Shown piece after piece: positions 23,869-24,105 of a DNA stretch of 24,105 nucleotides; the stretch's first letter is position 1, and each line of letters begins with the position of its first letter. The translations under genes and the position numbers were made by a program. The notes beneath the pieces are model-generated. The model worked only from the letters and a program-made list of their open reading frames with translations, ran no database searches and was not told where the DNA came from. The stretch is from IMG/VR virus record IMGVR_UViG_3300032083_001705, positions 1 through 24,105 of that record. One strand, written 5' to 3'. The DNA comes from a virus.

Positions 23869-23898
23869 TTGACTTATATGCGATTTGTTTCGTATATT
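23869..23898 (+). promoter_or_regulatory. Sigma70-type promoter for gp32
   Basis: TTGACT (23869-23874), 18-base spacer, TATATT (23893-23898), preceded by AAAAAAGC. The predicted transcript begins near 23905, leaving a leader of about 80 bases before the gp32 ATG. Confidence 0.75.
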
Positions 23899-23916
23899 GT
23901 GAAGATAGTATAAATA

Positions 23917-23980
23917 GGTTATGTGGTTATATGGTATAACCATAAACAATAAACGATAAACGATAAAACATAGGAGAAAT
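23917..23980 (+). promoter_or_regulatory. Candidate gp32 translational operator (hairpin plus AT repeats)
   Basis: TGGTTAT (23924-23930) pairs with ATAACCA (23936-23942); a second GGTTAT (23917-23922) could take the same partner, and ATGGT (23931-23935) can pair with ACCAT (23939-23943). Four tandem units (ATAAACA, ATAAACG twice, ATAAAAC) fill 23942-23969, ending just before the AGGAGA ribosome binding site at 23972-23977. T4 gene 32 uses a folded 5' element plus an unstructured AU-rich repeat region near its ribosome binding site for autoregulation. Confidence 0.5.
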
Positions 23981-23984
23981 ACAA

Positions 23985-24105
23985 ATGGATATAAATGCAA
24001 TAAAATCCAAACTCGCAACATTACAATCAACTTCAAATACAAAAGATAACTTTTGGAAACCTGAACCAGGTCAACAAGTTGTTCGTGTTGTTCCTTACAA
24101 ACATA
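23985..24105 (+). CDS. 32: ssDNA-binding protein gp32, N-terminal part (3' end outside window)
   Basis: The visible 40 residues begin MDINAIKSKLATLQSTSNTK and continue with DNFWKPEPGQQVVRVVPYKH. The N-terminal helix, the F-W-(K/R)-P-x-x-G segment and the following beta strand ending V-P match the start of gp32-like single-stranded DNA-binding proteins of T4-like phages, where the first residues provide cooperativity and the FW-P segment opens the OB-fold core. AGGAGA at 23972-23977 is the ribosome binding site. It is preceded by its own sigma70-type promoter and an unusual leader. The OB fold and zinc site lie outside the window. The family call is strong for so short a piece because of the FWKP segment, context and leader. 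Confidence 0.8.
   Translation, partial: MDINAIKSKLATLQSTSNTKDNFWKPEPGQQVVRVVPYKH

Follow-up and report, generated by a model that had tools for sequence, protein, structure and literature searches.

The gp32 gene at the end of the window (here the whole stretch of DNA analysed, the 24,105-base virus record IMGVR_UViG_3300032083_001705, positions 1 to 24,105) is preceded by a leader in which a 5' hairpin is followed by a ladder of seven-base repeats that holds the Shine-Dalgarno (SD) sequence in its fifth unit. We consider it likely that this leader is an autogenous translational operator, through which gp32 would repress its own synthesis in a way that resembles the working of the T4 gene 32 operator. 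In order, the region consists of a promoter-like TTGACT-N18-TATATT, the element AATAGGTTAT, a hairpin of 10 pairs and a 35-nt stretch of heptads with GGAG inside it, and the individual features are:

23869 to 23898, + strand: promoter-like TTGACT-N18-TATATT upstream of the leader (consensus scan)
23913 to 23922, + strand: conserved 5' element AATAGGTTAT, which holds the GGTTAY motif (motif count in divergent leaders)
23922 to 23944, + strand: 5' hairpin of 10 pairs, one of them G-U, with the loop at 23932-23934 (fold, family z scores, loop-proximal covariation)
23942 to 23948, + strand: heptad 1, AUAAACA, which overlaps the base of the hairpin by three bases at its start
23949 to 23955, + strand: heptad 2, AUAAACG
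23956 to 23962, + strand: heptad 3, AUAAACG
23963 to 23969, + strand: heptad 4, AUAAAAC
23970 to 23976, + strand: heptad 5, AUAGGAG, which is the SD sequence in phase with the ladder
23985 to 24105, + strand: first 40 codons of gp32 (ssDNA-binding protein) from the ATG at 23985, the rest lying beyond the window end (open reading frame)

The original prediction had named the downstream gene as gp32, and profile matches together with a predicted structure identify it as a gp32 homologue (PF08804). All 40 residues encoded in the window are identical to those of the relative L002, whose full-length gp32 has 254 amino acids and matches the PF08804 profile (E 5e-16, 59.7 bits with a cut-off of 26.8), phrog_1192 (E 2.5e-24) and, by protein sequence, gp32 in the PDB (E 5e-4). 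A structure model of gp32 from a 54-sequence alignment reached a mean pLDDT of 65 (with 16 sequences the value was a low 40). The six matches that it has in the PDB at E<=0.001 are all RB69 and T4 gp32 chains, and Foldseek comparison with 2a1k/1gpc gave E values of 8e-10 to 5e-9. The window also carries T4-type structural genes for a tail sheath, a major head protein and a head-tail adaptor; among named phages the head protein is nearest to that of Flavobacterium phage immuto (50%), and a search of genome contigs matched three MAG contigs with conflicting hosts. Long GAAGAT-type tandem repeats lie at 1937-2359, inside the frame 1773-2747.

Relatives are the matches listed when IMG/VR was searched with the upstream protein and with gp32. 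At least 597 IMG/VR stretches encode a gp32 of this family, and the gp32 start could be read in at least 206 locus rows, which include the DNA of the window itself (L001), two named phages (L161 and L162) and overlapping loci of one contig. Minus-strand matches and matches starting after residue 12, L163 among them, were left unused. After removal of one row with a short upstream region and of leaders identical over the last 78 letters, 134 distinct leaders with 41-100% gp32 identity remained among the matches listed. A second, distant clade was collected with L217 as query, where 50 of 80 leaders remained as distinct; 26 of its leaders had at least 80% identity, and all of these except L343 were readable for the pair count (25). 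The two named phages belong to the 29 representatives used for hairpin folding and stand outside the period tests. The main clade has the consensus AATAGGTTATATGGTT-loop-AACCATAAnnAATAAACGATAAACRATAAAACAyAGGAG, and its form with a double GGTT is found in 77 of the 134 distinct leaders among the matches listed. Hairpin and repeats are conserved in relatives, with exceptions among distant ones, where the layout is kept loosely and a clear hairpin is sometimes missing.

Tandem 7-base repeats leading into the ribosome binding site had been predicted, and this part of the prediction held well: the 35 nt from 23942 onward form five heptads, the fifth of which holds GGAG. Matches at lag 7 number 22/28 in this stretch, a value reached by 0/20,000 dinucleotide shuffles, and TRF reports the same array with a period of 7 and 4.3 copies. 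Under a strict ladder rule it is the sole ladder in the window on either strand, and across the loci 75/206 locus rows have a ladder at gp32 by this rule, with a single further case in the rest of the 2.18 Mb covered (both strands counted). In 74/80 main-clade leaders the stem is followed by four NTAA units that keep a perfect 7-nt register; positions 1-4 of the heptads hardly change, and positions 5-7 are variable. Counted from the end of the stem to the last base of GGAG, 42 of these 80 leaders have exactly 35 nt, and 9, 7 and 12 of them have 34, 36 and 37 nt.

The 7-nt period extends beyond the main clade. In the 30 nt before the SD sequence of 27 divergent representatives, the mean z score is 2.16 at lag 7 and 1.63 at lag 14, and at most 0.18 at the remaining lags from 2 to 15. 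The score at lag 7 (z7) is positive in 25/27 representatives, with lag 7 as the single best lag in only 10/27; with simpler shuffles and lags up to 12 it is the best in 16/27. The 23 tracts of the most distant set have z 2.11 at lag 7 and 1.25 at lag 14, with z7>0 in all 23, next to values of 0.86 and 0.74 at lags 4 and 8. A middle set of 11 tracts is weaker (z 1.42 at lag 7, 1.29 at lag 14 and 1.24 at lag 6; 8/11 positive). The letters of the unit vary between tracts, for example AUAAACG, CUAAAAA, AAUAAAC and AACAAAU, and since the 7-nt period stays while they differ, the period outlives the sequence. No 7-nt period is seen in the 65 A-rich tracts that precede other genes (mean A 0.50; p 1.4e-9).

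Other gp32 leaders mark the range of this feature. By eye, there is no ladder in L161 and L162, the nearest named relatives with 47% and 41% gp32 identity, and 33 representatives of 74 cyanophage gp32 leaders have no 7-nt period on average (z7 0.5). The leaders read at the cyanophage gp32 loci L412-L491 share a CCAAATACAACTAATACGAGG-like tract just before the SD sequence. On average, nine T4-type gp32 leaders (T4 and eight others) likewise lack a 7-nt period (mean z7 0.17), with lag 7 as the best lag in the leader of ECD7. The period is also absent from L499, a leader from Mosigvirus, the genus of RB69.

The 5' part of the leader had been described as a 7-bp hairpin with alternative partners. 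The hairpin itself was found again and is longer than predicted: 8 contiguous Watson-Crick pairs (23924-23931 with 23935-23942) enclose the 3-nt loop UGG, and one G-U and one U-A pair lengthen the helix to 10 pairs (23922-23944). As for alternative partners, GGTT does occur twice in the leader, at 23917-23920 and 23925-23928, but neither an alternative pairing nor a pseudoknot is supported. A T4-type pseudoknot was rejected on the ground that pairing of the loop lies below the shuffles (loop complementarity in 74 leaders: 2.82 versus 3.14 expected downstream, 3.54 versus 3.72 upstream). A longer stem that would reach into heptad 1 was rejected as well, as heptad 1 varies (AC, AT, CT, TT and others) while GGTTAT is constant.

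Taken alone, the fold of the 84-nt window leader is not significant (z -1.55, 14/200 shuffles as good). At family level, the region from -75 to -28 of 29 divergent representatives has a median fold z of -1.93 with 13/29 at p<0.05, whereas leaders of other genes from the same loci, of which 150/159 control representatives were scored, have a median of -0.07 with 11/150 at p<0.05 (p 4e-8 for the difference). The median remains -1.93 with an extra clade added (16/35 at p<0.05), and the distant leaders L165, L173, L188 and L200 have no convincing hairpin.

Covariation in related phages, which the original prediction had proposed as a check, was found at the pair next to the loop. RNAalifold gave 5 pairs and none covarying for the main clade, because the stem is invariant there. 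The loop-proximal pair, in turn, is A-U in 32 and U-A in 18 of 54 distinct main-clade loops, so that it is formed in 50/54 versus 28.0 expected (0/5000 shuffles); the second loop pair does not covary (10/50 versus 9.3 expected). To allow for relatedness we placed 65 leaders on a tree of gp32 DNA; 8 of them were left out of the test as they have C-A, G-A or A-G at this pair. The tree has 10 changes on each side of the loop-proximal pair; the 10 independent pairs counted over all branches change together, and those on supported branches are concordant in 6/6 cases (p 0.031). In the distant clade a sequence-based alignment yielded no consensus structure with RNAalifold; MAFFT had misplaced the 3' arms, and pairs were therefore counted between the fixed flanking letters TTGT and RCAA. 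Among 16 distinct hairpins (25/26 leaders), the first pair is C-G 11 times and A-U 5 times, the second is A-U 10 times, U-A 3 times and C-G twice with one mismatch, and pairs 3, 4 and 5 are formed in 5/16, 4/16 and 15/16. A smaller count of 12 distinct hairpins from 20 leaders gave the same trend. These pair counts indicate that the hairpins of the distant clade have been replaced compensatorily.

In the region of the hairpin, the GGTTAY motif occurs in 22/33 divergent leader representatives (0.62 expected from shuffles, with a maximum of 4) and in 6/156 control leaders, and by eye its structural setting varies, as it lies beside the stem, in the 5' arm or in the loop. The promoter-like element is weak on its own, because the consensus scan found 5 such elements versus 4.6 expected; TTG-N18..23-TAnnT is present, as a raw count, in 91/134 distinct 110-nt leaders. 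A T4-type late promoter was rejected as the cause of the conservation, since the core TATAAATA is present at 23909 of the window but in only 6/134 leaders. Elsewhere on the + strand of the window, a late-promoter-like box TGATATTTATATATGAA, unlike the T4 late core, lies at 1653, 4527, 5189, 8620, 10939, 11546 and 13232 (four of the seven have this form and the rest are close variants). Each box lies between two genes, 28-120 nt ahead of the start of the second, and TATTTATA occurs 11 times on the + strand versus 1.4 times in shuffles.

The pattern GGTTATATGGTT-N3..14-AACCATAA is found in at least 120 stretches of the viral collection, and GGTTATATGGTT-loop-AACCATAA occurs in at least 205 loci (overlapping loci included), with gp32 directly downstream in 200 of them; the other 5 reach the end of the sequence, 3 of these past a start that looks gp32-like by eye. 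When 595 kb from 69 chosen sources were searched with a covariance model of the leader, no convincing second copy came up (two additional matches were weak, E 0.38 and 0.9), and in the stretches searched no other gene with the same leader was seen. The main-clade leader persists where a thioredoxin-like gene takes the place of the P0001 homologue as the upstream gene. L010, L016, L034 and other relatives differ in whether a gene stands between this homologue and gp32, and the intervening gene of L034, the one tested, matches a thioredoxin-domain family. The leader is also intact in L072, L106 and L111, where a tRNA-Met gene ends at its start (L072:4184-4258, L106:2352-2426, L111:2351-2426), and as the tRNA gene abuts it, the 5' end of the leader may come from tRNA processing in these phages.

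The original prediction had compared the layout with the T4 gene 32 operator. According to the accounts in PMC535899 and PMC3014915, the T4 protein attaches to its leader at a pseudoknot in the 5' part and extends from there across UUAAA/UAAA repeats into the ribosome binding site. The likeness holds for a folded 5' element followed by unstructured A+U-rich repeats with a UAAA core that run into the ribosome binding site (as described for T4 in PMC535899), and the layout is conserved among the relatives, occurs in the stretches searched at this gene alone, and has the backing of covariation and periodicity. The window leader stands before a gp32-family gene, reaches the ribosome binding site and has a less structured A+U-rich 3' part of 43 nt from 23942 to the AUG, with UAAA in heptads 1-4 and the UUAAA form absent. 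The comparison fails for the pseudoknot and for the pitch: the T4 operator combines a pseudoknot of about 28 nt with UUAAA/UAAA repeats, whereas the window leader has a plain hairpin, and its UAA cores are exactly 7 nt apart with the SD sequence in phase, a pitch that the T4 tract does not have. We do not file the leader as a member of the T4-type operators, because the pseudoknot, a defining part, is not supported and because binding and repression by gp32 are what we infer. It may have an independent origin or be the result of deep divergence from the T4 operator.

Further known systems share single traits with the leader. The gene 32 operator of RB69 is described as divergent in sequence with the same layout as that of T4 and as repressed by its own gp32; unlike the window leader, it has a pseudoknot and UUAAA/UUAA elements (PMC535899). 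The operator of T4 gene 43 (DNA polymerase) is recognised through a simple hairpin that precedes the start codon, but it belongs to another protein, and the account in PMC3014915 describes no repeat ladder. STAXI motif RNAs (RF01728) are repeated RNA elements that are sometimes located near genes of ssDNA-binding proteins, but they are presented as repeated pseudoknots of Enterobacteriales (PMC2864571), and the window has no match in Rfam 15 at gathering score. At the leader itself, Rfam gave a single match up to E 10, with 14.7 bits versus a cut-off of 49.9. Among the matches listed in searches of open-licence PMC literature, there was no report of the window leader or of a gp32 operator phased at 7 nt.

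Cooperatively bound T4 gp32 occupies 7 nt per monomer on ssDNA of any sequence, as reported in PMC7826291 and PMC10484735, and the latter states that this site size shrinks towards 5 nt at high protein concentration or on a crowded lattice. Because the heptad pitch equals the T4 gp32 site size and the ladder runs from the hairpin to the SD sequence, we propose autogenous filling by gp32, on the assumption, taken from T4, that the site size of the window phage protein is also 7 nt. The hairpin and the GGUUAY motif would mark the RNA and set the start point of binding, and gp32 protomers would fill the unstructured A-rich ladder cooperatively, one per 7-nt unit. The length from hairpin to SD sequence would fit a chain of about five protomers, the last of which would cover the SD sequence and block ribosomes. 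Abundant ssDNA would draw gp32 off and translation would resume. More tentatively, the ladder could be a molecular ruler, with a pitch that selection has matched to the lattice site of a cooperative ssDNA-binding protein otherwise indifferent to sequence. Register and not one high-affinity motif would then let gp32 recognise its own message, with the SD sequence as the last rung; we hold this idea to be slightly less likely than not. Since T4-type leaders lack the 7-nt period on average, T4-type repression can do without a matching pitch. That T4 manages without it, and that the middle relatives are less regular, count against a strict need for the pitch.

Instead of an operator, the leader could be a constitutive translation enhancer and mRNA stabiliser, the hairpin blocking decay from the 5' end and the tract serving as a ribosome standby or S1-binding site for a protein made in very large quantity. 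The composition of the tract would suit this, as across the representatives it is A-rich (0.60 versus 0.38 in control leaders) and largely unpaired (0.77 versus 0.53), and it enters an SD sequence that is present in 115/118 gp32 leaders versus 239/584 other genes of the loci. In the window itself an SD sequence is nothing unusual, as an SD-like string of at least 4 bases precedes 17/22 other window genes listed. T4 gp32 is required in large amounts, which would also be in line with an enhancer. However, an enhancer gives no reason for a 7-nt period that survives changes of the unit sequence, and it leaves unexplained why this period is absent from the 65 other A-rich tracts and rare elsewhere in the loci, so that we regard this explanation as unlikely.

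That the ladder is read by another RNA-binding protein of phage or host and not by gp32 seems improbable to us. T4 also uses RegA and further repressors, as reviewed in PMC3014915, and GGUUAY is conserved like a sequence-specific site, but one would expect to meet a general regulator at more than one gene, whereas the full motif is found only at gp32 among the matches listed, and the pitch is that of the T4 gp32 site. A DNA element such as replication-origin iterons, a promoter or a transcription-factor site is still harder to reconcile with the data: tandem direct repeats beside a replication gene do look iteron-like, but the compensatory changes of the hairpin and the in-phase abutment on the SD sequence point to RNA, and the leader stays intact with a tRNA-Met gene upstream. 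Neutral slippage of tandem repeats kept by descent can practically be dismissed, for although the units of a single leader can change in concert (L147, L121), an outcome that slippage or conversion would also give, register and copy number are nearly fixed in the main clade and the first four heptad positions hardly vary while the last three do.

An autogenous gp32 operator remains our preferred explanation. PMC535899 describes it as unclear how gp32, which is indifferent to sequence, tells its own mRNA from others, and the review in PMC3014915 asks for a study of gp32 autocontrol in diverse relatives of T4. The gp32 family that carries this leader is well represented in IMG/VR, and the leader itself is without a match in the Rfam release searched. 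As a candidate operator it would be new relative to that of T4 in that a plain hairpin replaces the pseudoknot and the pitch corresponds to a single protomer. The leader shows how the letters of hairpin and repeats can turn over while the geometry is kept. If the ladder is indeed the gp32 operator, specificity could come from register, that is from many weak sites placed one protomer apart.
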